A DNA stretch of 64,000 nucleotides from Bacteriovoracaceae bacterium (GCA_029865945.1 JARXAH010000084.1:1-64000); one strand, 5' to 3'; positions 730 to 21,771 are shown, counted from the first letter of the stretch. A program made the numbers and translations. Notes: generated by a model not told the origin, from the sequence alone.

Positions 730-2352
730 TTAATTTAGTCTCAACTCCTCAATGGTCTTAAGAAAATTTCCCTTGGTCAAAATACCTTTAACAAATGGAA
801 AGTCTTCTTTTTTGAGATGAGAATTTCCTGTATGAAAAAAAATTTCTCGCATCCCCAAATCAAAAAGTCTCTTTGCGACAAAGGATCCATCTCTTTGTTC
901 ACCGAGATTAAAATCCAAAAGAAAAATTGTTCCTTTTTGAAAAGTCCTTGCTTGCTTTAGTAATGTACTGATATCGCTAAAAACATCAACTTGCCTATGA
1001 AATTTTTCGAGAAGTTGCTTGTAGCGATAGAGAAGTGTTTGATCATCATCTAAAATAACAATGTTAGGAATTTCGTAAATGGGAATCTCAACAGTGAAAA
1101 TAGATCCACTGCTTTCGTTAAACTTTGTTTTGACATAAACATTTCCACCCCAACTTTCCGCCATTTCTTTAATATAAGATAGCCCTTGTCCTGTTCCATG
1201 GATTTTTGTTGTAAAACCTTTCGCAAATATTTTATTAAGAACAGATTCATCTATTCCTGTCCCATTATCTTGAACTGAAATGGAAACACAGTTTTCTTTT
1301 ATTATCGCGTGAACCGTAATATTCTTTTGTGATTCATTACAGGGTACGGCCACAGCGTTCTCCAGTAAATTTGAGAACACACGGTAGAAGGTATTGGAAT
1401 CAACTTTGATTTTAATGCACTTGGAGATTTCTGAATCAAAATTGATATTTACCTTAGGCGTATTTTTCTTATATTTGATAGCACTTTGCTCCATCAGCTC
1501 ATTCATAAGATCAAATACAAAGTGAGGAACTTCTCTAACCGTCGTCACGATTCCATCTTTATGATGGGAAATATTTCCAAAGGCATCGCGAATTTTTCCC
1601 AAAGTTTTTCTTATCTCTGCGGCTTTATCTTGTTCTGATAGATCATATGTTTGCAAATCTAAGGTCGCAATTTCGCTTTGAGTATCATGAATTATTTGCC
1701 TAATAATGTTGGCAGATATTTTTTCTTTTTCAGCTTGAATGGCCTTTTGGTAGTAAGGTATCAAAAAATATTTTTTAGAAAGAAAAAACCAAAATAGCCA
1801 CAGAGAAAGTATAAAAAGAAAAATAGGTAATCCATATTGAAGTACAAAACCAAAGACACTTTCGGCCATAAATTGAAATCTATCTTCCATTACAACGGTG
1901 ATTGATCCAAGACGTGATCCGGCCAAATTTAAATCGGCCTCATAAACAAAATTTTGCCCCTGTTTGTTAAAATTGCAAGGAATATCCTGGAAATCCTGAT
2001 TTTTTGAAAAAACGCATTTCTGTCCTTGCTCACTGTAGAGATACAAATCAAAGTTAGGGGAAGAAAATTTTTTTAGTGAACTCTTTATTCTAAGAAAAAC
2101 CGATTCATAGCTTTTCGTAAAAAACTCTTCAACGATATAACGATAATCACTATTAATTCCCTCATTGAGAAGTGACTTAGTAATCTCAGATCGCCCTTGC
2201 TCTTTTTCTAAAAAAGAAGTAGAGAGGTAATACGCACCTAGTCCAAGTCCCATCATAATAATGAGAATCGATCCATAAAAAAATATGGTTATAGGTCGAT
2301 GCATGGGGTTACTGTTAGATCGTCCCATGGTATCCAATGCCTTTTTGATCAA
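730..2352 (-). CDS. hybrid sensor histidine kinase with C-terminal receiver domain
   Basis: A 540-residue membrane sensor kinase. TM1 is about 21-42 and TM2 about 167-191, enclosing a periplasmic sensing region of about 120 residues with two cysteines. The dimerisation helix carries IIHDTQSE with the probable phospho-accepting His222. The ATPase domain shows the N box (LLENAV, about 330), DNGTGID (362-368) and GTGQGLSYIKE (386-396). A receiver domain fills 429-540, with DDD at 435-437 and the phosphorylatable Asp480 in LLDFNLG. It is the last gene of the operon and overlaps the transporter fusion upstream by 38 bases. That coupling suggests it senses the same ligand, with the NtrC-type regulator at the head of the operon as probable partner. 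The ligand is unknown. Confidence 0.9.
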   Translation of the reverse strand: MIKKALDTMGRSNSNPMHRPITIFFYGSILIIMMGLGLGAYYLSTSFLEKEQGRSEITKSLLNEGINSDYRYIVEEFFTKSYESVFLRIKSSLKKFSSPNFDLYLYSEQGQKCVFSKNQDFQDIPCNFNKQGQNFVYEADLNLAGSRLGSITVVMEDRFQFMAESVFGFVLQYGLPIFLFILSLWLFWFFLSKKYFLIPYYQKAIQAEKEKISANIIRQIIHDTQSEIATLDLQTYDLSEQDKAAEIRKTLGKIRDAFGNISHHKDGIVTTVREVPHFVFDLMNELMEQSAIKYKKNTPKVNINFDSEISKCIKIKVDSNTFYRVFSNLLENAVAVPCNESQKNITVHAIIKENCVSISVQDNGTGIDESVLNKIFAKGFTTKIHGTGQGLSYIKEMAESWGGNVYVKTKFNESSGSIFTVEIPIYEIPNIVILDDDQTLLYRYKQLLEKFHRQVDVFSDISTLLKQARTFQKGTIFLLDFNLGEQRDGSFVAKRLFDLGMREIFFHTGNSHLKKEDFPFVKGILTKGNFLKTIEELRLN

Positions 2353-4669
2353 TGCGATAAATGATCACATCTTTTTTAGGCGTATTATCTTGATCAAATT
2401 GAAATTCACTAGAGGTAAGTAGATTTCTCCCATGATAATTTTTGAGCGATTTCCGAATACTTTCTCCGGTGATTGGCCCCTTAATTTTAAGGATACTATC
2501 AAATAAAATAGATGCAGTATCATAAGCGATGGCACTCCATGAGTTCGGGCGATCATGGTAAGTTGCTAAAAATTTTTCTCTGAAATTTTTATTTTCTTTA
2601 GTACTACTCTCTTCATTCCAGTAAACATTTCGGTACGCAGTAAATGCTTGCGGCCCTTTTTGTTCTTCAACTAGTCTTTTGTAAACAGACTCATTAGTTC
2701 CCCATCCATCAGAACCTATGTAACTTGGATAAAATTTTTCCTTAATGGCCTGGGAATAAAATCTAAAGAGATCACTTTGGTAGCTTAATAAAATGACTTG
2801 CGTAACATTTTTCTCTTTGAAAAATTTTATTTCCTCTGATAAGTCTTTTTGATTTTTTAAAATCTTGCGCTGAATAACATTTATTTTTGGATTCAGAGAA
2901 CTTATTTTTGCTAAAAACTCTGCGCTTAAGTACTCGCTATAGGGATAGGAAATGTTGTTAAGAATGCCTATAGACTCTGGTCTTAATTTTTTGGATACAA
3001 AGTCAGCAAGCTTCTGTGCCACAAGAGTATCAGATATGCAGGCCCTAAAAACATAAGGTCTATTTTTGGTAACATCCGGGTTCGTCGCGGTTGGAGTAAT
3101 CAGTACAATATTTTTATCTTTTATCACTTCTGAAATCGCCATGGCCTCATCGCTGTTTTCTCCGCCTATGATAACTTGATTTCCTTCTTGTACTGCTTGA
3201 GTTGCTGCACTAATCACAGAAGTGAGTGCTTCGCTATGAGAATATTTTTTAAAATTGATTTTTATATTTTTTTCTTTCTCATAAACCGTTTTTGCAAACT
3301 CGAACCCTTTATCCATGAAACCAACCGATCCATTAAATTTATCTTGAAATCGAAAGATGAGAGCAACGGAAAACTCTTTTTTGTTGGAGGCCGCAAAAAT
3401 GCTGTTATTTGGTGATGCCAATAAAAATAAAATGAGTAGACAGAAAATCCCAGGACAATTTAATTTTCTCTTTTGAACCCCATAACATATTGCGATAACT
3501 AGCACAGGATAAATAAGATAAACTCCTGAAGAAATCAAAGAAGATGCAAGTAGTAGCAACGTAATGATGCTTAAGATTTTTTTTCCAATTGAGGAAGATG
3601 TTCGAAGAAAAGAAATGATACATAAAACATAAATGGTAAGGAAGTTCGCACTAACCATGATAAGTCCTTTATTCAAAAATTCAGGAAAAATCATTAACGC
3701 TAATAAACTTAAAGAAAACAAAGAAATGAGTAAATAAATAGGATTTTTTTGATTTCCTACATTTTCAGGAAGTGCTAATGAAGATGCGGAAACTTGGATC
3801 ATATAAATTAGCCCCCTAATCCAACTCATAAAATTAATCTTGAGGGCGAAAACGGAAAGGAGAACAATTATTCCTCCAGATAGCCACCTTGGTGAGACTT
3901 CTTGGGATAATTGATAGATTCCCATGACGGATTGAATTTTATCGTAAGAAATAATGGCCGCGTAATTTGCAGTGACGCCTAAGTAAACTAGGCCACAGAT
4001 AATCAAGGAAAATACCATGGATACTAAAAAATCTCTTCTGGGATTTTTAAATTCGTGGGCAATGAAACTTAAATTCTCAAATCCGGCGAACGCCCAAAAT
4101 GCCATTGTAATTCCAATGAAAGTTTTCCCTAAATCAAAGTCGGGAATTAATTTGTCATAACCTAGTGAGGCTTTTGGGAAAGTTATAAAAAGAAGTAGAA
4201 TAGAAAATACAAAAAAACTTAGTGAAACAATATTGATCATGCGTTCACTTGCACTTTTGCCAATTAAATTGGCGATTACACCGAAACCAAGTAAATAGAC
4301 TGCGACCATGTATTCCAAGTGTTCAATTTGAAAATAATTTTGTACAAATTTTCCCACAATGATGGCCGAAGATGGCATTCCAATCATAATGGTTGAAAGC
4401 ATAAGAGTGGGAAATATCGCTGACCAAGTTTTCCCAAGTCCAAGCTCAATAAATCCTTTGACGCCTACCTCTGGCCTTACATGTTTTGACATGTCATAAA
4501 ACATCATTAGTAGCGGAATACATAGCAGCGTGGCCATGATCCAACTAAGAAGAACATTTGCGCCACTTAGCTGATAAGTTAAAGATGGCAAAAAAAGTAT
4601 TCCAGACCCCATAATTGATCCAACGCCGTATGAGATACCACTTAAACGGCCAAGTTTGGGAATTTTCAT
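2315..4669 (-). CDS. APC-family permease fused to a periplasmic binding-protein domain
   Basis: 784 residues in two parts. Residues 1-400 are an amino acid/polyamine/organocation permease with about 12 hydrophobic segments. The TM1 motif GSIMGSGILFLP is at 17-28 and the TM6-like AFWAFAGFE at 190-198. Residues 430-784 are a type I periplasmic ligand-binding domain of the Leu/Ile/Val-binding class (ITPTATNP, PYVFRACISD, YIGSDGW). Between them, residues 404-428 look like a preserved signal peptide (hydrophobic stretch ending FAAS), which would put the binding domain outside the cytoplasmic membrane. The start ATG overlaps the stop of the diiron-enzyme gene (ATGA). This architecture is unusual: APC permeases normally work without a binding protein. 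It may be a transporter-receptor working with the neighbouring kinase. Confidence 0.85.
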   Translation of the reverse strand: MKIPKLGRLSGISYGVGSIMGSGILFLPSLTYQLSGANVLLSWIMATLLCIPLLMMFYDMSKHVRPEVGVKGFIELGLGKTWSAIFPTLMLSTIMIGMPSSAIIVGKFVQNYFQIEHLEYMVAVYLLGFGVIANLIGKSASERMINIVSLSFFVFSILLLFITFPKASLGYDKLIPDFDLGKTFIGITMAFWAFAGFENLSFIAHEFKNPRRDFLVSMVFSLIICGLVYLGVTANYAAIISYDKIQSVMGIYQLSQEVSPRWLSGGIIVLLSVFALKINFMSWIRGLIYMIQVSASSLALPENVGNQKNPIYLLISLFSLSLLALMIFPEFLNKGLIMVSANFLTIYVLCIISFLRTSSSIGKKILSIITLLLLASSLISSGVYLIYPVLVIAICYGVQKRKLNCPGIFCLLILFLLASPNNSIFAASNKKEFSVALIFRFQDKFNGSVGFMDKGFEFAKTVYEKEKNIKINFKKYSHSEALTSVISAATQAVQEGNQVIIGGENSDEAMAISEVIKDKNIVLITPTATNPDVTKNRPYVFRACISDTLVAQKLADFVSKKLRPESIGILNNISYPYSEYLSAEFLAKISSLNPKINVIQRKILKNQKDLSEEIKFFKEKNVTQVILLSYQSDLFRFYSQAIKEKFYPSYIGSDGWGTNESVYKRLVEEQKGPQAFTAYRNVYWNEESSTKENKNFREKFLATYHDRPNSWSAIAYDTASILFDSILKIKGPITGESIRKSLKNYHGRNLLTSSEFQFDQDNTPKKDVIIYRIDQKGIGYHGTI

Positions 4670-5463
4670 ACTAATTGCCCTTGATCGATCACTTCATTAA
4701 TCGCATTCCAATATAACCTCCAAAAATGCACCGCTTGATTAAAACCACTCAAAAACTCACTCTTACTTTTTTCGCAAGGACAAAAGCGAAGGAAGTTGGC
4801 CACATTAAGTCTGATATGCTCTTTCTCTGCAATTTTATGAATACGAAAGAAGGACGATTTTTCTACAAGTTCACTACTTTCCTCATCATAAGACAGAGCA
4901 TCAAAGAGAGTTTGAATATTTTCTTCGGCATCAATCTCAAGGCCAAGTAATATGCCTAAAGACATTCCATCTGTAGAAGCATTGGTCATAATAGTTTTTA
5001 GATATTCAAAAGGAAATTTACTCAAGTTCTTCGAGATCAGATTTATTCGATCATGATCCGTAATCCCGATCTGCTGCAAGCAATCTAAAAATAAATCTGG
5101 ATGGATTAATCTGTGATTTCTACTTCCAAGTTCTTCAAAGATAATTTGGACAATGTAGTGCCTCATTAAATTGTTACTGACCTGAGCAGAAGCAATACTC
5201 ATCACCTTTGGTGCAAGAGAAGAAAAATGATGCCAAAATGTTCCAATCACTGCCGCTTTTGTTTTATTTCGGAACTTAAGTCGCATCCATGTTTCTTCAA
5301 AGATTTTATCCACATTGGCCATTTTATAAAACATATTGGTCCATTCAATAACTTCAGGTGAATCAGAGTCATAAATATTTTCAAAGACTCGATCACTCCT
5401 AACGATAACTTCTAAATTTTCTAACATTTCCTTGTGGGCGACTTCACTTAACATCTCAGACAT
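4666..5463 (-). CDS. haem-oxygenase-like diiron (HDO/TenA-fold) enzyme
   Basis: This 265-residue, all-helical soluble protein has the spaced ligands typical of haem-oxygenase-like diiron oxidases and oxygenases (the UndA, BesC and PqqC-like superfamily). The pattern is EEL...H in IIFEELGSRNHRLIH (E110/E111, H117/H121), a Glu at GLEID (E176), then H209, E213 and H216 in FRIHKIAEKEH. Known members oxidise fatty acids or amino acids using O2 and iron; the substrate cannot be told from sequence. The gene follows an SDR dehydrogenase by 11 bases and overlaps the permease-receptor by 4 bases. The enzyme pair may therefore make or alter the molecule that the transporter/sensor handles. The fold call is good; any specific reaction is inference. 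Confidence 0.7.
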   Translation of the reverse strand: MSEMLSEVAHKEMLENLEVIVRSDRVFENIYDSDSPEVIEWTNMFYKMANVDKIFEETWMRLKFRNKTKAAVIGTFWHHFSSLAPKVMSIASAQVSNNLMRHYIVQIIFEELGSRNHRLIHPDLFLDCLQQIGITDHDRINLISKNLSKFPFEYLKTIMTNASTDGMSLGILLGLEIDAEENIQTLFDALSYDEESSELVEKSSFFRIHKIAEKEHIRLNVANFLRFCPCEKSKSEFLSGFNQAVHFWRLYWNAINEVIDQGQLV

Positions 5464-5474
5464 AAAATTACCTC

Positions 5475-6188
5475 CTATTTGTTGTAGGGCGAATGTTGGG
5501 GACGAATTGTAATTTCAGTGGGACAGGCCGAAGTGGGTAAACTAATGGCCCATGACACTGAAAGAGCAATATCATCTGGTTGAATCATTTTTTCAGAAAT
5601 TAAATTATCGCCTCTTCCCATGTCAGTATTAACGTAACCAGGAAAAAGACAGGTAACTTTAATATTTTTTTCGCGAACACTATCAAAAAGGCAATTGGAG
5701 TACGCCCTAAGCGCGTGCTTTGTTGCTGTATAAATTTCGCCACCTTGATAGGTCATAAGGCCCGCCACCGATGAAATATTAATAATGGCCCCACCGTTCT
5801 TAGATATCGCTGGAAGAAGCTGGTTCGTTAAGTGATAGATGGAACGAAAGTTAAGATCCAAGCAGTAGTCCCAATCTTTTAAACTGGATGTGTAGGGATT
5901 TCCATTTACATATGTTCCTGCGTTATTAACAAGGTAATCGAACGAAGGAAAAACATTTAAAATGCTTTCAAGCAGTTTTGGAATTTTATCTATTGCTGTT
6001 AGATCAAATGGAAATATTTCTGATCTAATCCCAACTACGTCACAGTTTTTTTTTACTTTTTTTAGTTGAGTCTCATCTCTGGCAACAAGTGCCAGATTTA
6101 CCCCTTCACTGGCCAATCGATAAGCAATGGCCTCGCCAATTCCTCTTCCAGCACCAGTTATAATGGCGACCTTATTAGTAATTCTCAT
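5475..6188 (-). CDS. short-chain dehydrogenase/reductase (classical SDR)
   Basis: 237 residues with the full classical SDR signature: the cofactor loop TGAGRGIGEA at 11-20, NNAG near 89, catalytic Ser in NISSVAG, and YTATK (YxxxK) with PG after the following strand. It is a soluble NAD(P)H-dependent oxidoreductase acting on a hydroxyl/carbonyl group. The length and intact catalytic triad suggest an active enzyme. It overlaps the small upstream gene by 14 bases and precedes the diiron enzyme, consistent with a two-step oxidation pathway inside this operon. The substrate is unknown. Confidence 0.9.
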   Translation of the reverse strand: MRITNKVAIITGAGRGIGEAIAYRLASEGVNLALVARDETQLKKVKKNCDVVGIRSEIFPFDLTAIDKIPKLLESILNVFPSFDYLVNNAGTYVNGNPYTSSLKDWDYCLDLNFRSIYHLTNQLLPAISKNGGAIINISSVAGLMTYQGGEIYTATKHALRAYSNCLFDSVREKNIKVTCLFPGYVNTDMGRGDNLISEKMIQPDDIALSVSWAISLPTSACPTEITIRPQHSPYNK

Positions 6189-6390
6189 CGCATTTCTCCG
6201 TAGTTATGGTTTGAAATAGTTCTTTAAATTTTCCTTCAAAGTTTTTTATGGCACCCAGTACTTCTTGCACGTCATAGGCCTTGGGGTTTTTACTATTTGA
6301 TAAATCAATGACTATGCAATTGAAGCATGTGTTTACAAGATCAAGATCTCGCCTTAGTTTATGAATCTTTTTTTGTGTTTCAATATTCAC
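6175..6390 (-). CDS. small helical protein of unknown function in the sensor operon
   Basis: 71 residues, charged and predicted helical, with two cysteines (FNC) and a third near the C-terminus. It overlaps the regulator gene upstream by 4 bases (ATGA) and the SDR gene downstream by 14 bases, so it is translationally coupled to both and very likely real. I do not recognise a family. It could be a small phosphotransfer or adaptor protein, but no conserved HPt motif is seen. Confidence 0.65.
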   Translation of the reverse strand: MNIETQKKIHKLRRDLDLVNTCFNCIVIDLSNSKNPKAYDVQEVLGAIKNFEGKFKELFQTITTEKCDENY

Positions 6391-7745
6391 GCATCAACCT
6401 CACTTATTTTTTTGTCCCTTAAGTGATAAAAAAGTGTAGTCCTTGAAACTTGATAGGCCTTGGAAATTTTATTTTTATTTCCGCCATGTTCTTTAAGTGC
6501 AAAATCAAAAAACTCCCCTTTAATTTTATCAAGTAACGCAGAGAGACTTTGATGTCCCTTGGCAAAATCGATTTGATTTTCGGTCAGAAGCCAATCTTTA
6601 CTTAATTCGGCAACAGATTCGCGACCAACTTGTAAATATTTCTCTAAATGCGCTGGAGTAACGATTCCTCCCTTAACATCAGAGAGTCTGTTGATGAATT
6701 TTTGTAATTCCCGAACATTTCCTGGCCAAGAATACTGAAGAAGGATCTCTTTTGCCTGCTCATCTACGAAAACACTCCTCGTTGCTTGATTGAGAAAATG
6801 CTTTATCAGCATTTTGAGGTCATCTTTTCTCTCTCGCAAAGGGCGCAAGTAAATAGTTTTTCCTTTTATTCTGTTATAGAAATCCGGTCGAAGCTTTCCT
6901 TCTTTAACAAGGGATTCTAAATTTTTAAGTGTTGCCGTTACCAGCAAAAAGTTGGAGCGGATTCTTTTTAGGCCACCAACTCTTGTAAATTCTTTTTCCT
7001 CAATAACTTTTAAAATAGTTTCCTGAGTCGTTAAGGGCATGTCTCCAACTTCATCGAGAAATAAAATTCCGTTGTTTGCTTGTTCAACTTTGCCCATCTT
7101 TAATCTATCCGCACCAGTAAAAGCGCCTTTCTCATGGCCAAAAAGTTCTGACTTAATAATTTCATCATTTAGTCCTGCACAGTTTAACTCAACTAATTCT
7201 CCCTCTATCCCCAGCAGTGACTTTAGACATTTCGCAAGTTGGGTTTTCCCAACTCCAGATTCACCACTTATGAATATTGGCTCCATCGGACTAAACGTAG
7301 TGCATACATCTTCAAGAGATTCGATAATATCTTTGTCCTGAGTCAGATAAGTTGTTTTGGTGAGTCGCTCCACGTTTTTGCGAAACTCTTTGGAGTTAAC
7401 AACTTTTTTGATAAAAATATCTAATTTTTCTTTCAAGTTACTTTTCTTCACAAAATCATCGACTCCATTTTGATAGGCCTGTTGAATTAATGCATCATCA
7501 TTTTCAAAATAAGTGACAGCAATGACGTGCCTTATTCCTCTTTGCTTGCATAGTAGTGCAATACGAGGGCCAATGATTTCATCATTGATTTCAAGATCAA
7601 CAATAGCGCAATCAAATTTAAAATTTTGAATCAACTCTTCCGCTCTTTCCAAGGTGCTTGCGTGAAGTAATTTTCCGTAGTTAGAAAGATTTTTGGAAAG
7701 GAAATCCAGAAAACTGGGATCATCTTCAATTACTAAAAAGTTCAT
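6387..7745 (-). CDS. NtrC-family sigma-54 response regulator
   Basis: 452 residues in three domains. The receiver domain (1-115) has E7/D8/D9, the phosphorylatable Asp50 and Lys near 100. The AAA+ sigma-54 activator domain has Walker A GESGVGKT at 161-168, the sigma-54 contact loop GAFTGA at 207-212 and Walker B ILFLDE ending at 232. A C-terminal Fis-type helix-turn-helix follows ([18 protein letters not shown]). All active residues are present. It is the first gene of the minus-strand operon and faces the conjugation island across a 229-base divergent region that holds an inverted repeat and a sigma-54-like promoter. It probably receives phosphate from the hybrid kinase at the operon end. 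Confidence 0.93.
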
Positions 7746-7916: not shown

Positions 7917-7944
7917 TTGGCATGGGTTTTGAATTGAGTATGAA
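7917..7944 (+). promoter_or_regulatory. promoter for the island operon, sigma-54-like or sigma-70
   Basis: TTGGCATGGGTTTTGAA (7917-7933) resembles the sigma-54 -24/-12 consensus (TGGCAYG, 4 bases, TTGCW) except for A instead of C in the -12 element. The same stretch can be read as a sigma-70 promoter: -35 TTGGCA, 16-base spacer, -10 TATGAA (7939-7944). It lies about 30 bases before the first ATG of the island and directly after the 7882-7907 inverted repeat. Which sigma factor applies is undecided. Confidence 0.35.
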
Positions 7945-7974: not shown

Positions 7975-8355
7975 ATGAACGCAAAAAAACAAAAGGCCAT
8001 ATCCTCCATAGATTCACTGGACGTGAGAGGCGAACTTATCAAAAAGTCGTTTAACAAGTTTAATGATAAGGCACACAAGACAAAGAGTCATTATTCAAAA
8101 AAAGATTTAGAATTTGCAAAATGTTGCAAGGACTTTCTTCCAGATCATGAGCGAATAGTCGTTCATTTACATTTCTGGGAAGAGTTATCCCTCAGTGAGA
8201 TTTCCCATGTATTACATGTGTCTTTTAAACTTGTTGATTTGATTTTGCAAAATGCGATTAAACGGTTGCGTTCAATTTATGAAGATCATTTTCCCAGTAC
8301 TAATTTTATTCCATTGAACAGGAGGATTGAATCCATTGACATGAAATTTTATTAA
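7975..8355 (+). CDS. small HTH protein resembling sigma-70 region 4
   Basis: 126 residues. The second half (about 58-110) reads like a sigma-70 region 4 / HTH unit: LPDHERIVVHLHFWEELS, then LSEISHVLHVS and a recognition-type helix. The first half is basic and disordered. There is no region 2, so it is not a complete sigma factor; it is more likely a DNA-binding regulator of the island. GAGG lies 9 bases before the ATG. It is the first gene of the plus-strand cluster of conjugation-type genes. Confidence 0.6.
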   Translation: MNAKKQKAISSIDSLDVRGELIKKSFNKFNDKAHKTKSHYSKKDLEFAKCCKDFLPDHERIVVHLHFWEELSLSEISHVLHVSFKLVDLILQNAIKRLRSIYEDHFPSTNFIPLNRRIESIDMKFY

Positions 8356-8368
8356 AAAGGTGTATGGC

Positions 8369-8848
8369 ATGTTTATTTGTAAAATTTTAAGAAAATTATT
8401 TTCTAAGAAACTTAAACCAATGGAGAGCTTTCACATGCAGGCCATGCAACTCATTCAAAACCAAGAACTCGAAGGGAAAAACCCTAATATGTTTTACCTT
8501 TGGTGGTTCAACAAAAAATCCCAAAAGAAATTTTGCGCTGGACGGGCATTCTATTCAGAGAAACAAGGTGATTTTCGCTTATTTATTAACCTACTTGAAA
8601 ATAGCTCAAATGGCGGAAAGCGTGAAGAGTATTACCTTCGCCCCGCCCAAGTGAGTGATGATTATACTTATTTCAAAGTAGAAAAAATCATTCACCATCC
8701 GGATCGATCCCATCGCTTTTGGGTGGGAGAAGCTTTTCGAAGTGTTGAAACCAACGGCGACATTCATATCCAAATAGAGCCACTAACAGGATTTTATAAA
8801 AAATTAGTTCTAAACATGAATCAGGAAAAGGACAAAACCCATGAATAA
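8369..8848 (+). CDS. unknown protein, second gene of the conjugation island
   Basis: About 159 residues, no signal peptide, basic N-terminus (ILRKLFSKKLK) and many aromatic residues (FYLWWF, HRFWVGEAF). I chose ATG 8369, with AAAAAGG ending 8 bases upstream, over the GTG at 8360, which sits on the Shine-Dalgarno itself. It overlaps the pilin-like gene by 8 bases, so it belongs to the same transcript. No family is recognised. Confidence 0.6.
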   Translation: MFICKILRKLFSKKLKPMESFHMQAMQLIQNQELEGKNPNMFYLWWFNKKSQKKFCAGRAFYSEKQGDFRLFINLLENSSNGGKREEYYLRPAQVSDDYTYFKVEKIIHHPDRSHRFWVGEAFRSVETNGDIHIQIEPLTGFYKKLVLNMNQEKDKTHE

Positions 8849-9137
8849 GAAAATTATTATTTATGTATCCCTTGTGCTGCTTGCTATGGCCATTGCTTTG
8901 CTTCCTGAAATGTCCTTTGCTCAAGTGGGAGGATTTGACAGTAAGGTGAATAGTCTAACTAATCTCATCGTTGGAAAGATTCTTCCTGCGGTAGCGGTCT
9001 TCGGTCTTATTTATGCGGCCATCTTGGCAGCGGCCGGAGATGAAAGCAGTAAAAAAAGAATGGTCTTAGTGATTGTTGCATCCATTGTAGGAATTCTTGC
9101 TAAATTTATTGTTCCCATGTTTCAAGGAGCGGTTTAG
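8841..9137 (+). CDS. virB2: VirB2/TrbC-like pilin subunit
   Basis: 98 residues with a long signal peptide (cleavage likely after SFA, about 28), then two hydrophobic helices joined by a short charged loop (GDESSKKR). This is the layout of VirB2/TrbC pilins of type IV secretion systems. Mature length is about 70 residues, normal for the family. The following gene begins on the last base of its stop codon, and that gene is VirB3-like, the canonical order. Confidence 0.75.
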   Translation: MNKKIIIYVSLVLLAMAIALLPEMSFAQVGGFDSKVNSLTNLIVGKILPAVAVFGLIYAAILAAAGDESSKKRMVLVIVASIVGILAKFIVPMFQGAV

Positions 9138-9472
9138 TGGAAGCACTTGAATCATCAATTGTTCATAGAAATCTTGATACCAAATTAAAAATTGGGCCTC
9201 TGGAGGCCCTTGATTTGCTTGCGGCCCTAATCATTTCTTCTTTTATGGGATTTTTCTTTGATGGAGGAGTGCTTGGTTTTATTTTTATATTTCTTGTTCC
9301 ACTACTTTTTCTAGGAGGACTTTTTTTTGTGAAAAGAAATCGGCCAGAGAATTTTTTGCGCGACTTTATTCGTTTTACTTTTAAGCGGGGATTCTACGGG
9401 GCCTCATGTGACCTAATAGAATCACAAAACATGAGTCAAAAAATTTATATCAAGAGTGATGCTCATGAGTAA
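9137..9472 (+). CDS. virB3: VirB3/TrbD-like inner-membrane protein
   Basis: 111 residues with GTG start at 9137, which shares its first base with the previous stop (TAGTG). A pair of adjacent hydrophobic helices (about 25-66) is followed by a basic tail with NRPENFLRDF and a glycine/aromatic motif. It fits VirB3/TrbD by size, topology and position between the pilin and the VirB4 ATPase. Sequence similarity alone is weak. Confidence 0.65.
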   Translation: MEALESSIVHRNLDTKLKIGPLEALDLLAALIISSFMGFFFDGGVLGFIFIFLVPLLFLGGLFFVKRNRPENFLRDFIRFTFKRGFYGASCDLIESQNMSQKIYIKSDAHE

Positions 9473-9653
9473 GGCCGATCTTATGCAGGTGTTAGCATTG
9501 AACCTGGAACAACTCGGGTGTCTTGGGCAATACGCCCAAGAGCATCTCGATAATGAAGAATGGTTTGAACTAAATGAACTTCTCTACAGTGTGGAGGATG
9601 AGTATGAAAAATTGACTGAAATATTAAGCACCATCAAGGAGATGCGTCCATGA
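9465..9653 (+). CDS. small helical protein between virB3 and virB4
   Basis: About 62 acidic, helical residues. The frame has possible starts at GTG 9456, ATG 9459 and ATG 9465; I chose 9465, with AAGAG ending 8 bases before it. It overlaps the VirB3-like gene and its stop overlaps the VirB4 start (ATGA), so translation is coupled. No family is recognised; a chaperone-like or assembly accessory role is only a guess from position. Confidence 0.5.
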   Translation: MSKADLMQVLALNLEQLGCLGQYAQEHLDNEEWFELNELLYSVEDEYEKLTEILSTIKEMRP

Positions 9654-12067
9654 AAGGAAATCAGTTTACAAATATCGGTGATCAGTTACCTTTATGGCAT
9701 TTCGAAGATGATACTTTGGTATTTCAAGATGGATCCTTAGGGGCCGGATTTTCGCTGCAAGGACTCGATATCAGCACGACTACAAATGAGGTGATTAATG
9801 GAATATGTTCTTCGATTAGCAACCTAATTAATTCACTTGAAGAAGGACTTCGCATTCAGGTTTTTTATAAAGTTTCCTCAGATGTATCCAAAATAATCCA
9901 TAAACATAAAGAATCGATTTCGCAAAATGATTCCTTAAATTTCTTGATTGAAAAGAGGTTAGACTTCTTTAAAGAAAATGAGGCCCAAGGAAACTTTTAT
10001 CGCCCAGAAATTTTGTTTTTTATAAGAAGTAAAAACTTTTCCAGGAAGTCATCCGGTTTATTTGCAAGAACAGCTAGGTTTTCTCAAATGATGAAAGAGG
10101 AATTTAATTTGCATTTTGAAAATTTTCAAAGGCAAGTAACATTAGTGAGAGGTCATTTAGAAAACATGCAGTTAGATGCAAAAAAACTTAGCCACGATGA
10201 GTGGTTCAAGGAATTGTTTCAATATTTCAACCTAAAGAGATCACAAACTATCGGCTCGCCAAAAGTAACAGTAGATGTGGAAAAACTTTCACCTTCACTA
10301 CTTAAACAACTCATCTTAAGTGATCTTTTCGTTCACAGAGATTACTTGGAAATTGATCGAAAATTTTTCAAAGTAATCAACATGGGAACACTTCCTGATA
10401 AGACATCTGCCGCGATGGCCGAAAGATTAACCAAACTTCCCTTCCACTATTGGGTGTCTCAAAGTATCGAAGTTGGAAACCAAAAAAAAGAGGTTGATTT
10501 TTTGCAACTCAAGCGAAGAATGGCCTATTCTATGGCCGCTGGCTCCAAAAATGTTTCTGATTTGGAATCTGAATCTAAGCTTGAAAATTTAGAAGGGTTA
10601 CTTCAAGAGCTTATTGGGGGAAATGAAAAAGTTTTAAACATGGGGCTATGTTTTATTATTTGGGGCGACAGCGTTCAAGAGCTGCAAACAAAGTCTGATC
10701 AAATTTTACGTGAGTTGAGATCACTTAACAACGCTGAAGGCATAATTGAGTCTATGAGTAATTTAGATAATTTTATAAAATCCTTTCCTGGAAGCTGCGA
10801 GAGCTACACCCGAAAGAAAGTAAAAACTTCTAATGCGTCACACCTTTTTCCAATATTTGCTAACTGGAGTGGAAACTCTAGGCCAGTTTGCCTTTTTCCT
10901 ACGAGAGACTTAACGCTCTTTGGAATTGATCCTTTTGCTCCTGAGCTTCCTAACTGGAACGGGCTAGTTGTGGGGGGAAGCGGAAGTGGCAAGTCGTTTA
11001 CCTTGTCGAGTATTATGCTTCAATTTGCAACCCAAGCACCCAGTCCAAAGATTGTGATTATTGACAATGGAAGATCGAGCGAAAATTTGGTGAAGGTGCT
11101 TGGAGGAGAATTCATTGATGTGGGATTAAACTCACAAATTTGTTTGAATCCTTTCGAATTACCTAAGGGCGAGAAAACACCATCAAGCATAAAGATAAAA
11201 TCAATTCTTGCAATCCTTGAATTAATTTTTAGAGATGAGCAAATGTCTTATCTTCCCAAGAGAGATAAATCACTTTTAGAAGAATCCATCATGAGGCTCT
11301 ATGAAGTATGCACTGATACACCAACACTAAGTGATTTAAAATTAATGCTTGATCGGCACAGTGATCCCTCTATGAAAAAGTATGGGGATATTTTATTTTC
11401 TTGGACGGGGAATTCTGCATTTGGAAAAATATTGGATGGAAAATCCAACATCACTTTGCAAAAAAATATTACCGCCATTGAAATTAAAGGACTTGATGAT
11501 TTTCCTGATCTGAAAGACGTCTTTATGCTTCTTGTTACCAATTTTGTTCAAAAAGAAGCGGAAAGTGATTTATCAACTCCTTATGTTTTAATCTGTGATG
11601 AGGCGCACCGCCTCTTTAAGACCCCATCGACTAGGGATTACATCCTCTATTGCTACCGTGTATTTAGAAAATATAATTGCTCTATTTTTTGTATCACGCA
11701 AAATCACAAGGATTTTTTAAGTATCCCGGAAGTGGCCGAGGCGATTTTTCCCAACACAACCCATGTTTTTATTTTGCGGCAAAGAAAAATTGATTGGGAG
11801 GATTTCCAAAAAACTTTTGATTTCACCAATTCAGAAATTGAATCCATTAAAAGTTTGCAAATCAAGAAGCGAGAATTTTCAGAAGTCTTTTACATGCAAG
11901 ATGAAAAAAGGGCCATCCTTAAAATTATTCCTGATAGCTTTAGCTACTGGATTTGTACCAGTGATGGTAATGATAAGGCCAAAATCGAAGAACTAAAAAT
12001 GCAAAACCCCGATTGGCCTATTGTCCAGGTTCTGAAAAATTTAAGTGAAAAAATTTATGAGGCGTAA
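9650..12067 (+). CDS. virB4: VirB4/TraC-family conjugation ATPase
   Basis: 805 residues, the usual size for VirB4. The N-terminal half is the CagE/TrbE/VirB-type domain. The C-terminal ATPase has Walker A GGSGSGKS near residue 443-450 and Walker B VLICDEAHRL near 645, followed by a conserved TQNHKDF sensor region. It acts at the cytoplasmic face of the inner membrane, powering pilus assembly and substrate transfer. This is the most secure type IV secretion gene of the island. No VirB11 ATPase is seen in the window, so VirB4 and the FtsK-like protein are the only motors. Confidence 0.92.
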   Translation: MKGNQFTNIGDQLPLWHFEDDTLVFQDGSLGAGFSLQGLDISTTTNEVINGICSSISNLINSLEEGLRIQVFYKVSSDVSKIIHKHKESISQNDSLNFLIEKRLDFFKENEAQGNFYRPEILFFIRSKNFSRKSSGLFARTARFSQMMKEEFNLHFENFQRQVTLVRGHLENMQLDAKKLSHDEWFKELFQYFNLKRSQTIGSPKVTVDVEKLSPSLLKQLILSDLFVHRDYLEIDRKFFKVINMGTLPDKTSAAMAERLTKLPFHYWVSQSIEVGNQKKEVDFLQLKRRMAYSMAAGSKNVSDLESESKLENLEGLLQELIGGNEKVLNMGLCFIIWGDSVQELQTKSDQILRELRSLNNAEGIIESMSNLDNFIKSFPGSCESYTRKKVKTSNASHLFPIFANWSGNSRPVCLFPTRDLTLFGIDPFAPELPNWNGLVVGGSGSGKSFTLSSIMLQFATQAPSPKIVIIDNGRSSENLVKVLGGEFIDVGLNSQICLNPFELPKGEKTPSSIKIKSILAILELIFRDEQMSYLPKRDKSLLEESIMRLYEVCTDTPTLSDLKLMLDRHSDPSMKKYGDILFSWTGNSAFGKILDGKSNITLQKNITAIEIKGLDDFPDLKDVFMLLVTNFVQKEAESDLSTPYVLICDEAHRLFKTPSTRDYILYCYRVFRKYNCSIFCITQNHKDFLSIPEVAEAIFPNTTHVFILRQRKIDWEDFQKTFDFTNSEIESIKSLQIKKREFSEVFYMQDEKRAILKIIPDSFSYWICTSDGNDKAKIEELKMQNPDWPIVQVLKNLSEKIYEA

Positions 12068-12755
12068 ATTATTAAGGGTTGTGATCCTTGGAGGATTTTT
12101 ATTTTACTCACAATTTGGAGTGGCACAAATTAGTGATGGTAGTGGCTGGGCCAACTATGTTTACCTGGTTAAAATCTACGGCGAGAATTTGCGTCGCTAC
12201 TACCAGCTAAAAGAAATGATACAGCAGGCGCACAGACACGATCAGTACATTCGCATTCTCAACGAAGGCCTTAATGGCGCAACTGGACTCATGGAAGTAC
12301 TCCCCGTTAGGGACGAAAGAATTCTCTCACAAATTAGAGAGTTTCAAGGGGCATTAAGTAAAATTGAAGAAATCTACGGACTGATTCCAAAAAGCTCAGA
12401 TGAAGCGCTTCAAAGATTACACGACTTAACAATTGCAGAGAGTTTGAAAATTTCTATTGCCTCAAGAGACTACGCCGAAGTCCAAGAATCAAATGCACAA
12501 AGGGTTTTCGTGCAAAGTGCGGCCGCATCTCCCAAAGGAGCGGCCCGCATGGCAGCTCAGGCAAATGCACAAATTCTGCATTCGCTAAGTCAACTCCTTC
12601 GCCTAAACGGTCAAATGCTAAAAATGCAAAGTGAATCCTTTGCCTTAACCAACAAGGAAGAGAAAGACTCTTCTGAAAATTTTAACAAAACAAAAAAGGA
12701 CTTAGGAAAGGCCATGAACAAACTTAAACCCAATTACGAGTTTCCGAGGTTTTAG
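12045..12755 (+). CDS. VirB5/TrbJ-like secreted protein
   Basis: 236 residues with a signal peptide (hydrophobic 10-25, cleavage near GVAQ) and a long, largely helical mature part. Near the C-terminus is an Ala-rich stretch (AAASPKGAARMAAQANAQ) as in VirB5/TrbJ proteins. It starts at GTG 12045 inside the end of virB4 (23-base overlap); ATG 12057 is an alternative. Its position right after virB4 supports a minor pilus-tip or surface protein. The family call rests on size, secretion, helix content and context. Confidence 0.6.
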   Translation: MKKFMRRKLLRVVILGGFLFYSQFGVAQISDGSGWANYVYLVKIYGENLRRYYQLKEMIQQAHRHDQYIRILNEGLNGATGLMEVLPVRDERILSQIREFQGALSKIEEIYGLIPKSSDEALQRLHDLTIAESLKISIASRDYAEVQESNAQRVFVQSAAASPKGAARMAAQANAQILHSLSQLLRLNGQMLKMQSESFALTNKEEKDSSENFNKTKKDLGKAMNKLKPNYEFPRF

Positions 12756-12756
12756 C

Positions 12757-13524
12757 TTGGATATCGATCCAAGGGTTGTTAAGGGATTAGATAAAAAATA
12801 CGTGGCCCTCTATGCAAGAACTTCTGTGGCCGGTAAACAAGAGAAGGGACTTGATGCTCAGGTGCGGGCACTAAGGCGCTACTGCCAAGAGAAGGAAATC
12901 ACGAACTACGCAATTTTTGAGGACGAAGGTATTTCTGGAACGAAAGATTCCAGGCCAGCTCTCAATAAAATGATGCAAGAAGTGATGGCCGGAAGAGTGG
13001 AAAAAGTAGTAGTTTATTCCTTTAGCCGGTACGCAAGATCCACAACCCACCTGCTCAATGCGCTTACTACCTTCAAAAAAGTTGGCGTATCGTTTTTGTC
13101 CTTAAGTGAAAATTTGGATACTAACACTCCTTTAGGTTTAACTGTTTACACTATCATATCCGCATTAGCGCAACTGGAGAGGGATCTCATCTCTGAAAGG
13201 GTTCGAAATGGACTTCGCGCGGCCAAAGAAAGAGGCGTTAAAGTTGGAAGAAAAAAAATTCGTCCCTCGCAGTTAATTCGCACTCTTCGTAAATCAGGAC
13301 TAACTTACAAAAGCATTTCGGCCATTGCCAAAGTAAGCCAAGGGGCCATCGCTACTGAACTTAAAGAGTGGAAAAAAGAAAAGGCAGAAGGGAACGAACA
13401 AATTTTTCCATCAGACATTCCTGCACCAGAAGTTATTGCCCCACCTAAAGTTGATTCGCAAGAAATTATTCAAACTCCAGTAGCAATGGAAGTCCGCTAC
13501 CATTCTGGAGAAATGGCCACATGA
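12757..13524 (+). CDS. serine recombinase (resolvase/invertase type) inside the transfer operon
   Basis: 255 residues with TTG start one base after the previous stop. The catalytic domain has ALYARTS (nucleophile Ser in YARTS), EDEGISGTKDSRPAL, YSFSRYARS and the E-helix ALAQLERDLISERVRNGL. A Hin-type HTH follows (TYKSISAIAKVSQGAI), then a Pro-rich tail of about 50 residues not found in ordinary resolvases. Its stop overlaps the start of the VirB6-like gene (ATGA). A recombinase built into the middle of a secretion operon is unusual. It may resolve island dimers, or may be a domesticated insertion co-translated with the operon. Confidence 0.85.
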   Translation: MDIDPRVVKGLDKKYVALYARTSVAGKQEKGLDAQVRALRRYCQEKEITNYAIFEDEGISGTKDSRPALNKMMQEVMAGRVEKVVVYSFSRYARSTTHLLNALTTFKKVGVSFLSLSENLDTNTPLGLTVYTIISALAQLERDLISERVRNGLRAAKERGVKVGRKKIRPSQLIRTLRKSGLTYKSISAIAKVSQGAIATELKEWKKEKAEGNEQIFPSDIPAPEVIAPPKVDSQEIIQTPVAMEVRYHSGEMAT

Positions 13525-14384
13525 TCGAGTGGCTTCCGCAAGTTTGCCGTGAGTTACATGGAGAGATGGCCAAACTTTATTGGCTCTTACTTTTACCAGT
13601 CATTGTTTTCTTACTCATTTTAGAGATGTTGAAATCTGGAAATCAAATTCCTGATGGCGGAAAGATTCTGCTTCGCACAGTTATCTCTATACTACTAATT
13701 GCTTCGTTTAAAGAGACGATCAATCTTGTAGCAGTTATGGGAGACGGAATTGCCAACCGCATTGATGGGCTGGCCAAGATGGGAAAATTGATGGATTTGT
13801 TTTCAGAGAATTTTTCAAGAGATGCGCCGGCACTCTATAAAATTAGAGAGCTATTTATTTTCTTGTTGAATTTTTTGTCCTACTTTCTTGCCTACCTCGG
13901 AATATTTATTTCAGATGCACTTCTTCACTTTACTTGGTCAGTACTCTACGTCTGTGCGCCACTAATGATTCTTTGCTACATCCCTGAGCAAACAGCGCAT
14001 GTGTGCAAAAATTTATACAAAGGACTACTAACCGTGATCACTTGGAAATGCCTGTGGTCGATTTTGGGTGTACTTCTTTTGAAACTTGCAGTGGAGAAAA
14101 CAACTGAAAATAGCGACAACCTTATTACCACGGCCGTTATTAATCTTTGTATTGCCTTAAGTATTTTAACCGTTCCCTTCTTTGCAAAATCATTTATTGG
14201 GGACGGAGTTGCAGGCTTTGCATCCAACATTGCAGGAGTTGCAGGACTCAGCGTTTTAAGGGTTTCAAAAAACTTGGTTCAATCAAAAGTAAATCCTAAA
14301 TCCTGGGGTAGATCAAAAATTCAAAACCCCAATGAAAAAAATTTTAAATTTCAAAAACACAAAGGAGGAAAATGGAACAAGTAG
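13521..14384 (+). CDS. virB6: VirB6/TrbL-like polytopic membrane protein
   Basis: 287 residues with about six hydrophobic helices: near 20-36, 50-65, 110-132, 140-152, 170-186 and 200-225. A Gly/Ala-rich segment (GVAGFASNIAGVAGL) and a basic cytosolic tail follow. The topology matches VirB6/TrbL channel components. It is coupled to the recombinase upstream (ATGA overlap) and overlaps the VirB8-like gene by 13 bases, whose AAAGGAGG Shine-Dalgarno lies in its 3' end. Confidence 0.7.
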   Translation: MIEWLPQVCRELHGEMAKLYWLLLLPVIVFLLILEMLKSGNQIPDGGKILLRTVISILLIASFKETINLVAVMGDGIANRIDGLAKMGKLMDLFSENFSRDAPALYKIRELFIFLLNFLSYFLAYLGIFISDALLHFTWSVLYVCAPLMILCYIPEQTAHVCKNLYKGLLTVITWKCLWSILGVLLLKLAVEKTTENSDNLITTAVINLCIALSILTVPFFAKSFIGDGVAGFASNIAGVAGLSVLRVSKNLVQSKVNPKSWGRSKIQNPNEKNFKFQKHKGGKWNK

Positions 14385-15001
14385 AACATCAGTACGTGAC
14401 CAGTATAGTAGGAGAGCAAAAAAAATCAAATTTCTTGAAAACCATTTTGCTCATTCTTACTTTTGCTAATGTTATTTTATGCGCTTCAGTATTGGCCTTT
14501 ATTTTATTTCCCCAAATTGTCATCCTTGAAAAGGAGGGTTTGGCCTTAAGCTACCAAGGAGTGAGAAAAGAAATTGTTATCACTCAAGATGAAATTAAAA
14601 AAATGGCCCAAGATTTTATTAAAGCTCGCTATGAATGGGATCAGTTTGATTTGGATCAAAAACTTGACGAGCTTGCTTCATTCACAACACCAGGGCTTAA
14701 AGAAAAGCTAGAGATGGATTTTAAAAAAAATTTGGAGAGCTTTAAAGTAATTTCTCAATATGTCGGAAAACTAGAATTGAACACCCACCCTAATGGAGTC
14801 ATTGATGTTAAATTTGATAAAATTTTGCGTCTCACTGCTAAACCTCAAGGAGATGATGCAAGCGCGCTGAGTAGTATGCCTGAGAAAATTCCACTTTTGT
14901 CTCAAACACAAGTGCAACTACAAATCGCGAGAGGAAAAAAACTACCATCAAACCCACTGGGAATTTATGTTAATGCGCTTACGGAATATGGAAGTAACTA
15001 A
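14372..15001 (+). CDS. virB8: VirB8/TraE-like inner-membrane protein
   Basis: 209 residues: a short cytosolic N-terminus, one TM helix (about 23-46) and a periplasmic domain of 160 residues with a helical start (QDEIKKMAQDFIKARYEW) followed by beta strands. This is the VirB8/TraE arrangement, a scaffold linking inner-membrane and core complexes. It has a strong AAAGGAGG 5 bases before ATG. Its end overlaps the signal peptide of the next gene, the usual virB8-virB9 coupling. Confidence 0.7.
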   Translation: MEQVEHQYVTSIVGEQKKSNFLKTILLILTFANVILCASVLAFILFPQIVILEKEGLALSYQGVRKEIVITQDEIKKMAQDFIKARYEWDQFDLDQKLDELASFTTPGLKEKLEMDFKKNLESFKVISQYVGKLELNTHPNGVIDVKFDKILRLTAKPQGDDASALSSMPEKIPLLSQTQVQLQIARGKKLPSNPLGIYVNALTEYGSN

Positions 15002-15722
15002 GTTGGCGATTGTTTGTTTTTCCTTTTTGCTTTGCAGCGCTCTGCAGGCCAAAAGAAAGGAAATAAGGGAAGTTTATACTAATGATCGGGAGATGAAGAC
15101 GATTAACCTCACCATGGGAAGGTCAACCATTCTTAGTTTCACTGAAAAACCAGTCAAAGTTGTTCTTGGAAACTCTACATACTTTAATGTGGAATTTCTG
15201 GGTAATGACGTAACCCTCCAACCACTAGCGCAAGTACCGACAAATTTATTTGTGTATACGCAGCAAAAAAATAAATATGGATTTCAGCTAAAGGTGGGAG
15301 GAGCAAATTTATATGACGACCTGGTTTACGTCTTTTGGAAATCGAATGGTGAAATATCAATGCTCCAAAAAGAAAGAAAACCAATTGCCAGCTTAAGTCC
15401 ATTTTCTTTCACACTGGGAAATTTAGAGTTTCATGGAAATAAACTTTTTTTACTTTCAGGAACAAAAACCTACATTATGGATTTCACTATTAAAAATAAA
15501 GGGAGGCGCACCATCAAAACAGATGAGTTTCAAATTTTTGTCTCCAGAAATAGTGAAAGACTTAAAGGGCAGAAAGTTGTTTTTGATAAAGAGCAAATTT
15601 CTATGCACGATGCGGCCAAGGGAAGATTATTTTTTCCAAGTGATCAGGTTGATGGCCTAAAACTTTATGTGCTTCATAAGAAAAAAACTAAGGTGAAAAA
15701 TTTATTAAAAAAATATCTATAG
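14988..15722 (+). CDS. virB9: VirB9/TraK-like secreted core-complex protein
   Basis: About 244 residues. I start it at ATG 14988, which begins directly with a signal peptide (MEVTKLAIVCFSFLLCSALQ, cleavage near QA-K); ATG 14967 and 14973 are alternatives. The mature part is beta-rich with a first domain typical of VirB9/TraK (TINLTMGRSTILSF, VTLQPL, TNLFVYT). It would join VirB10 in the outer-membrane core complex. Its last codons pass over an AAGGTG sequence and a run of seven A, where the next gene must begin or be reached by frameshift. Confidence 0.7.
   Translation: MEVTKLAIVCFSFLLCSALQAKRKEIREVYTNDREMKTINLTMGRSTILSFTEKPVKVVLGNSTYFNVEFLGNDVTLQPLAQVPTNLFVYTQQKNKYGFQLKVGGANLYDDLVYVFWKSNGEISMLQKERKPIASLSPFSFTLGNLEFHGNKLFLLSGTKTYIMDFTIKNKGRRTIKTDEFQIFVSRNSERLKGQKVVFDKEQISMHDAAKGRLFFPSDQVDGLKLYVLHKKKTKVKNLLKKYL
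15690..15713 (+). promoter_or_regulatory. Shine-Dalgarno plus A7 run at the virB9/virB10 junction
   Basis: AAGGTG (15690-15695) is followed 8 bases later by ATT 15704, which is in frame with virB10. A run of seven A (15707-15713) reads A-AAA-AAA in the virB9 frame, 11 bases after the AAGGTG. A -1 slip there enters the virB10 frame. No ATG, GTG, TTG or CTG occurs in the virB10 frame between the stop at 15689-15691 and TTG 15833. Either a rare ATT start or a dnaX-like programmed -1 frameshift is needed. Confidence 0.5.
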
Positions 15723-16687
15723 GAAGTTGGACTGGAGGTATTACAGGATGGGTAAAAAATTATTTCACTGAGCTAGAGGGAGACAAAAGAGTCCTTAAAA
15801 AGAAAAGTATTAAAATAGCAGCAAGTATATTTTTGCTACTATTTTTTTGTTCTCAATTCATAGAGTCCAGTGACAATTCTTTTTTAAGTAAAAGTTTTCA
15901 ATCGCCCGATGCTTCTGTAACTAATCCTGGTAAAAAAGTGAATGAGAGCTTCTTTCCTTTTGTTAACGTCACAGAGAAAAAGAAGAAAAAAAGACAGGCC
16001 TTGCAAAAAATAAGGCCAATCAATTTAGTTTACAATGCGAAACAAGTTATTGAGAGAGGAAGTGATCCCTTGGGTAGTTCAAGCTTTATTCCAGGTGGAA
16101 CTAATTTCATTGGAAAACTTTTAACAGGCATTGACACAAGAGACAATTCATCATCGTGCCGAGTTATTTTGCCCTACTCTGTAAATCACCCGAAGGGAGG
16201 AAGAATTGAGAAGAACTCTATTTTAGTTGGCACTGCAACTTCAAGCGGAGAAAACGAAAAGGTTTTTATTCGTTTTTCTAAAATCATCACTCCAAGTGGT
16301 GAGGAATTTAAAATTGATGCAGAGGCCTTAAGTTCCAGCGATTATTCTCCCGGACTCCTTGCAGATTATCACAGTAATGCCGACTCAAGGCTTATGGGTT
16401 CTATTGCTCTCACTATGGTATCAGCGGCCGCAGAGGTGCTTACTCAAAAAACAATGATGGGAGGAGGAGCACTCCCGATGGGGATTGGGGTGAATCAGCC
16501 AGACCCCACTCTAAAAAATGCTGCCCTTCAAGGCGTATCCAGCGTGGCCAAAGAGGAAGCAAGTAAATCAATGCAAGGAGCACAAAGTGCTCAAGGATAC
16601 CAAACAGTTTCAGCAGACACAGATTTAATTATTCACCTATTGGCACCATTTTCCATGGAGACAATCAACAATGACACAAACCTCTAA
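15704..16687 (+). CDS. virB10: VirB10/TrbI-like core-complex protein (start uncertain)
   Basis: From ATT 15704 the product has about 327 residues: a cytosolic N-terminus of about 38 residues, one TM helix (SIKIAASIFLLLFFCSQF), a linker with a basic patch (KKKKKR), and a C-terminal TrbI/VirB10 beta domain. That domain shows the family pattern GTNFIGKLLTGID, SCRVILPYSV and RIEKNSILVGTA, ending with LIIHLLAPF. The first ordinary start codon, TTG 15833, lies in the middle of the TM helix and would destroy the membrane anchor, so it is unlikely to be the real start. Its last 17 bases overlap the FtsK-like gene. Confidence 0.75.
   Translation: MKKISIGSWTGGITGWVKNYFTELEGDKRVLKKKSIKIAASIFLLLFFCSQFIESSDNSFLSKSFQSPDASVTNPGKKVNESFFPFVNVTEKKKKKRQALQKIRPINLVYNAKQVIERGSDPLGSSSFIPGGTNFIGKLLTGIDTRDNSSSCRVILPYSVNHPKGGRIEKNSILVGTATSSGENEKVFIRFSKIITPSGEEFKIDAEALSSSDYSPGLLADYHSNADSRLMGSIALTMVSAAAEVLTQKTMMGGGALPMGIGVNQPDPTLKNAALQGVSSVAKEEASKSMQGAQSAQGYQTVSADTDLIIHLLAPFSMETINNDTNL

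Positions 16688-20018: not shown

Positions 20019-20022
<4 letters not shown>
19786..20022 (+). CDS. small basic protein before the large recombinase
   Basis: Up to 78 residues with a basic N-terminus (SPKRKRMYQK) and an acidic C-terminus. The start is uncertain: GTG 19786 (GGAAAAG nearby), TTG 19816 or ATG 19837. The stop overlaps the recombinase ATG (ATGA), which argues that it is translated. It could be a recombination directionality factor by size, charge and location, but nothing in the sequence proves this. Confidence 0.45.

Positions 20023-21771
<1,749 letters not shown>

Follow-up and report, generated by a model that had tools for sequence, protein, structure and literature searches.

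A candidate signal-production-and-sensing cassette facing the conjugation operon of an integrative element in a Bacteriovoracaceae bacterium

Introduction

Much is known about conjugation under the control of signals in Gram-positive bacteria and for plasmids that use acyl-homoserine lactones. In Agrobacterium, the sugars bound by ChvE come from the host, and VirG does not belong to the sigma-54 activators. The Vibrio LuxPQ-LuxU-LuxO relay passes through LuxU, a four-helix HPt protein, and uses LuxS as its signal enzyme. Systems in which conjugation is set by an extracellular signal from or around the element itself include the Ti plasmid (TraI/TraR), ICEBs1 (RapI-PhrI) and Enterococcus pCF10, and have been reviewed (PMC4010749).

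Here we describe a locus within a 64,000-nucleotide stretch of DNA (the window) that constitutes contig C83 from base 1 of a Bacteriovoracaceae genome (GCA_029865945.1; 3.1 Mb in 103 contigs). Six minus-strand genes at positions 730-7745 lie divergent from a conjugation operon. Our main reading, to which we assign a probability of roughly 0.62, is that these genes form the signal-production-and-sensing cassette of an integrative conjugative element (ICE), with the divergent conjugation operon as its output.

The cassette shares the logic of LuxPQ-LuxU-LuxO, namely a periplasmic binding protein, a hybrid kinase, a small histidine intermediate and an NtrC-type sigma-54 regulator. It differs in that its binding protein belongs to PF13458, its intermediate is DHp-like as opposed to a four-helix HPt, its enzymes are a haem-oxygenase-like diiron oxidase (HDO) and a short-chain dehydrogenase/reductase (SDR) rather than LuxS, its output would be conjugation, and the entire circuit is contained in one ICE operon. 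No LuxS/AI-2 synthase or LuxP-type receptor was found among the Pfam domains of the cassette. In contrast to the Ti, ICEBs1 and pCF10 systems, it has no LuxI/LuxR, Rap/Phr or PrgX gene and would sense in the periplasm through a two-component relay and sigma-54. In Agrobacterium VirA/ChvE, too, a type IV secretion system (T4SS) is activated by a hybrid kinase that receives its input from a periplasmic binding protein, but ChvE is not encoded together with signal-making enzymes. A non-exhaustive literature search returned no description of this composition, no signal-controlled conjugation in the Bdellovibrio lineage and no report on ICEs of Bacteriovoracaceae; among papers on Bacteriovorax conjugation, none was relevant by title and abstract. 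Signal-controlled conjugation is already known as a kind, and what appear to be new are the architecture, the involvement of an HDO, the use of a DHp protein as a relay and the interchangeability of the modules described below.

Results

Six minus-strand open reading frames that an earlier note on this DNA had located are all present. The first encodes an NtrC-type response regulator (6387-7745; PF00158, 164 bits; PF00072, 39 bits) consisting of a receiver, a sigma-54 AAA+ domain with a GAFTGA motif and a Fis-like helix-turn-helix that matches PF02954 weakly (14 bits, cut-off 22 bits). It is followed by a 71-residue protein with a conserved His10 (6175-6390), an SDR (5475-6188; PF00106, 167 bits; motifs TGxxxGIG and YxxxK), an HDO (4666-5463; PF14518, 48.7 bits), an APC permease fused to a Peripla_BP_6 binding protein (2315-4669; PF13520, 76.9 bits; PF13458, 96.9 bits) and a hybrid histidine kinase (730-2328, with the listed ORF running from TTG 2352; PF02518, 71 bits; PF00072, 20.9 bits). 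These Pfam matches bear out the domain content that the earlier note had given for the enzymes, the transporter-receptor, the kinase and the regulator. The spacings reported there (overlaps of 4 and 14 bases, a gap of 11, overlaps of 4 and 38) hold as ORF arithmetic, although the 38-base overlap hangs on the TTG start. Since the kinase of a related locus (L034) begins at an ATG that aligns with ATG 2328 of the window, we place the start at the latter; the real overlap with the APC gene is probably 14 bases, and the protein 532 residues. Two transmembrane segments of the kinase enclose a periplasmic region of ~120 residues and are followed by a DHp domain (candidate phospho-acceptor H222, numbered from the TTG start), a HATPase domain and a C-terminal receiver, which scores below the PF00072 cut-off of 30.2 bits and has the acidic pocket, Asp, Thr and Lys all in its sequence.

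On the opposite strand, the divergent operon begins with a gene for a small sigma-70 region-4-like protein (7975-8355, plus strand; PF04545, 31.5 bits). This gene is kept at the operon start in L034, L068, L071, L072 and others, and its stand-alone product is possibly a second regulator. The conjugation (type IV secretion) operon proper (8360-18877, plus strand), recognized by domain matches and by synteny in L034/L047, encodes VirB2/TrbC-like, VirB3-position, VirB4/TraG-like ATPase (9650-12067), VirB8-like, VirB9-position and TrbI/VirB10 proteins, an FtsK/DUF87 coupling-type ATPase and a Replic_Relax protein. Beyond it lies a large serine recombinase, the candidate integrase (20019-21752, plus strand; PF00239, PF07508, PF13408), whose end is overlapped by a tRNA-Val gene (21695-21771, minus strand), the probable right-hand insertion site. 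The combination that marks an ICE, transfer genes plus a recombinase at a tRNA gene, is present. A search of the window for a left attachment repeat gave only chance-length repeats, and the contig begins at window base 1. The earlier note had predicted an output through sigma-54, which we retain, but had missed the divergent conjugation operon as its likely target.

Between the two divergent transcription units, a sigma-54-like -24/-12 element, TGGCATGGGTTTTGAA (7918-7933, plus strand), faces the conjugation operon; 41 bases, including an SD-like GAGG, separate its end from ATG 7975, and it lies 172 bases from the regulator start. rpoN was found in the genome. Corresponding sites point toward the transfer genes in relatives (TGGCACTGGCCTTGTA in L034 and L036, TGGCATCTTGATTGCT in L038, TGGCACACCCATTGCC in L019 and TGGCATCAATCATGCT in L018), ending 34-47 bases before the start codon and usually followed by an SD-like sequence, with L019 as the exception. 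Against dinucleotide shuffles, the window site had p=0.002, five loci combined gave a Fisher p of 8e-9 toward the transfer genes versus 0.18 the opposite way, and a second group of sequences, taken from in front of 15 transfer operons that a VirB4 search had located, gave 1e-7 versus 0.94; all of these values are indicative only, because the sigma-54 matrix was approximate, several loci are related, and start codons preceded by an SD sequence were adopted as region ends only once an initial scan of shorter regions had given no score for L038 and L019. No site was detected in the 250 bases tested for L075, L079, L081-L084, L086 and L087. Tandem palindromes that might serve as enhancer sites were clear in L019 and L038 and absent from the window, for which reason they are left out as evidence.

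A genome search for conserved co-occurrence, which the earlier note had proposed, showed that the same gene set and order recur in relatives and that the genes stay together. HDO homologues occur in 15 of 369 genomes of the phylum, and a profile search of genome contigs yielded 10 cassette loci, all in Bdellovibrionota MAGs (Bacteriovoracaceae and others); a search of viral contigs with the HDO protein gave no match. The arrangement is not a chance one, as the order is the same in G099, G139, G159, G031, G026, G020, G154 and others. It commonly runs regulator, small His protein, (SDR), HDO, APC permease, binding protein, kinase. The SDR of L034 holds the same position and is 65% identical to that of the window, while in L018, L019 and L037 the SDR is absent and a gamma-glutamylcyclotransferase-like gene (PF13772/PF06094) is present. 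The latter gene is also found in the regulator-less copies L020 and L021, and the L019 cassette has an additional Cupin_5 gene. In L018 and L038 the His protein forms an N-terminal fusion with the HDO.

Conjugation genes adjoin six of the seven regulator-bearing copies with readable flanks, and the regulator is divergent from the conjugation operon in the window, L034, L036, L038, L018 and L019. The neighbouring operons are VirB-like in the window, L034, L036 and L038; those of L034/L047 and L036 are homologous to the window's (VirB4 62% identical) and that of L038 is more distant (38%). L034/L047 has a tyrosine integrase in place of the serine recombinase. In L018/L046 and L019/L048 the operons are F-like, with TraC, TrbI/TraB, TraK, TraL, TraU, a relaxase and TraE. 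From these two operon types it follows that the cassette has become the neighbour of two or more unrelated transfer systems, with the regulator divergent each time. Three regulator-less copies (L020, L021, L039), which likely represent a chromosomal form, have no adjoining conjugation genes, showing that the core of HDO, APC permease, binding protein and kinase has another output as well. In L037 (1-367, G154), the gene lying divergent to the HDO cassette is radical SAM-like instead of a transfer gene, and the interval separating them holds a weak sigma-54-like site.

The HDO scores well above the PF14518 gathering threshold of 28.9 bits. Its metal ligands, E111, H121, E176, H209, E213 and H216, are invariant in 11 homologues, align to those of BesC and conform to the pattern E/H/E/H-x3-(D,E)-x2-H. 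The AF2 model (pLDDT 87) has a haem-oxygenase-like helical fold that matches CADD, BesC, FlcD, PolF and HrmI. Fold and E/H/E/H/(D,E)/H ligand set are common to BesC, FlcD, PolF, HrmI, RohS, CADD and UndA; of the solved proteins, the amino-acid-modifying BesC is the best match in profile searches (E=3.6e-4) and the closest in sequence, at ~17% identity. The earlier note had allowed that the protein might prove to be a non-enzyme of another family; ligand conservation and the model indicate a genuine HDO, predicted to bind metal and to catalyse an O2-dependent oxidation, and a candidate for the enzyme that makes the signal. Known HDOs are found in natural-product clusters, whereas this one sits inside a sensory operon on an ICE. 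A diazeniumdiolate product of the leudiazen or valdiazen type was considered and set aside, as no NRPS gene lies beside the cassette.

Fused APC permease and binding protein are confirmed for the window, L016, L034 and L036, with an interrupted frame in the last; L017-L021, L037 and L039 encode them separately. In L036 (3760-4051, G139) the APC gene is split into two frames, either because the gene itself is broken or through misassembly. A plasmid collection searched for the fusion contained none, only generic permeases or binding proteins. The best NCBIfam model for the permease in every cassette tested is YjeH/PRK11021, and E. coli YjeH exports Met, Leu, Ile and Val (PMC8140960). Scores against the YjeH equivalog, at 112-165 bits, are far below the cut-off of 284, so an export role is proposed by analogy only, with the amino-acid exporters of the YjeH group as the closest relatives. 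The binding protein exceeds the PF13458 cut-off of 31.7 bits, and the best PDB matches of its profile are amino-acid binding proteins. Residues S83, T106 and D231 are invariant and align with 3td9, where they may correspond to the Ser, Thr and acidic ligand positions of an amino-acid pocket. A signal-peptide-like segment is retained between permease and binding domain in the fused protein; the binding protein may therefore be anchored, or released by signal peptidase.

The 71-residue product, to the earlier note simply a small protein, is a real ORF, and is probably a stand-alone histidine phosphotransfer (DHp) domain, an identity that had been missed. It has no hit in Pfam or NCBIfam. Across nine homologues, the sole invariant residue is His10, near the start of helix 1, and the AF2 model is a two-helix hairpin (pLDDT 83). 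When its profile was aligned by hhalign with the DHp domains of the cassette kinases, the score was 29, compared with 11 for the best of 100 column shuffles, and His was aligned to His. The protein directly follows the regulator in 10 of 10 loci with a hybrid kinase and a local regulator (window, L034, L036, L017, L018, L019, L037, L068, L083 and L086) and is absent in all three groups in which a local regulator accompanies a non-hybrid kinase (L069, L072-like and L081). This tracking of receiver-bearing kinases matches what a hybrid-kinase phosphorelay requires. The alternative, that it is a structural or regulatory helical hairpin and that the hybrid kinase phosphorylates the regulator directly, draws on the weakness of HisKA similarity in single-sequence searches, where the best homologue, and only that one, reached 15.3 bits against a gathering score of 26.9. 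A lone invariant His at the H-box position, a profile match far above shuffles, a modelled helical hairpin and strict co-occurrence with receiver-bearing kinases together make it unlikely.

A control search was started from VirB4 instead of the HDO, and 20 elements were fetched. An NtrC-type regulator lies upstream in 13 of these, most of the others being cut by contig ends. A second element of the window's own genome (L068, G000:C75, 1475-13424) has a regulator 69% identical to the window's, and a VirB4, with a different signal module comprising a His protein, an unknown 343-residue protein, an SDR, AzlC, AzlD, a PF13458 receptor and a hybrid kinase. AzlC/AzlD, of the branched-chain amino-acid exporter family, stand in place of the APC permease. 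YjeH and AzlCD-type exporters are the best family matches of the two alternative transporters, although both transporters fall under the equivalog cut-offs and the window permease differs in carrying the fused binding-protein domain. At a third conjugation operon of the same genome (L069, G000:C3, 4771-17501) are an NtrC regulator, an OppA-type receptor, a 312-residue protein and a kinase.

OppA-type receptors (PF00496) recur in L072-L076 and partly in L078, with small secreted proteins, an alpha/beta hydrolase and an ICMT/PEMT-type methyltransferase. One secreted family of ~115 residues ends in a conserved (N/E)PGI and lies beside the receptor-kinase-regulator set (L072 5369-5716, L073 8132-8479, L074 6524-6931, L075 4416-4763, L076 6125-6478, L078 879-1229); its members are candidate peptide-pheromone precursors. 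A radical SAM protein, a small secreted protein, an OppA-type receptor and a kinase are encoded in L081 (5022-9701) and L086 (1327-6949), the closest NCBIfam model for the L086 radical SAM protein being the YydG peptide epimerase, and in L083 an OppA-type receptor accompanies a B12-radical SAM protein. A further radical SAM module is found near the regulator-less HDO cassette of G123 (L050, 2075-7498). We regard the modules of L081, L086 and L050 as candidate RiPP-signal modules.

Discussion

Taking the locus as a sensory circuit with the transfer operon as its output seems to us very probable from the sequence, and that what it senses is a self-made, exported amino-acid-like compound, somewhat less so but still probable. 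The HDO and SDR would convert a cellular amino acid or derivative into the signal, which the YjeH-like permease would export. Outside the inner membrane, the LivJ-type domain translated with the permease would bind the signal and present it to the hybrid kinase, from whose DHp domain phosphate would pass to its own receiver, then to the small DHp protein and finally to the NtrC-type regulator, which would activate the sigma-54 polymerase at the -24/-12 element directed toward the transfer genes. The signal could turn transfer on in a dense population, as with TraR, or off when carriers are sufficient; both fit, and inhibition by carrier density has a precedent in ICEBs1 PhrI (PMC4010749). The earlier note had proposed a single system producing or altering a small, perhaps amino-acid-derived, molecule and signalling its presence to sigma-54 transcription. 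Its core survives in that the genes keep together and the HDO is a true one, while the chemistry and self-production of the signal are still what we infer, and the place of the cassette as one of several interchangeable modules had been overlooked.

The same proteins could instead sense the environment or prey, with the receptor reading an external amino acid (for example from prey), the permease importing it, the HDO and SDR metabolizing it, and nutrient state governing conjugation with no self-made signal. PF13458 receptors are classic nutrient sensors, the closest solved ones binding branched-chain and other amino acids; APC permeases often import; and these organisms come from a predator-rich lineage. 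Yet the locus does not look like an inducible catabolic operon, since its sigma-54-like site points to the transfer genes and no such site is directed at the enzyme genes, and the best match of the permease is an exporter, as is the family of the swapped-in AzlCD. Across modules, receptor class tracks presumed signal class: PF13458 receptors go with amino-acid exporters, and PF00496 receptors with secreted peptides, radical SAM or ICMT-like enzymes. This joint change favours a self-made signal over nutrient sensing, because the common element is a maker or exporter of a compound together with a binder of that kind of compound, and the small secreted peptides and peptide-modifying enzymes of the sister modules fit self-made signals better. 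We therefore rate the nutrient explanation as rather unlikely. A third possibility, that the cassette is cargo for another purpose (such as an antimetabolite against competitors) with its own regulator and adjoins transfer genes merely through ICE layout, would accommodate both the occurrence of HDO enzymes in antimetabolite pathways and the regulator-less copies away from conjugation genes. The slot beside the first transfer gene is nevertheless held across two T4SS types, it is occupied by other modules with the same regulator-kinase-receptor logic, and the promoter-like sites point at the transfer genes, which leaves the cargo explanation quite improbable.

If self-production and sensing are correct, the locus would represent a new signalling architecture in which an on-board enzyme, exporter, receptor, phosphorelay and sigma-54 output are combined. 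Its signal would probably belong to a new HDO-derived class, its relay would use a DHp protein that stands alone, and its sensing slot would be exchanged between elements. It would also suggest a role for orphan HDO-sensor operons, in which an HDO-dependent exometabolite would change transfer-gene expression. A broader proposal, for which we see about even odds, is that a single regulatory slot in the conjugative elements of Bacteriovoracaceae is filled by one or another member of a diverse family of pheromone modules that can replace each other. One type would use HDO/SDR-made amino-acid-like signals, YjeH- or AzlCD-type export and LivJ-type receptors, and the other modified secreted peptides (radical SAM, ICMT-like methyltransferase) and OppA-type receptors, both feeding histidine kinases and sigma-54 regulators of transfer. 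Such modules would provide private channels for different elements, three of them in one genome.

Between the cassette and the contig end, the window also encodes a small protein of 94 residues (316-600) that is probably secreted; it consists of two similar halves, each with the pattern F.CL...G.A.L...S..FQ..S.EECQ.
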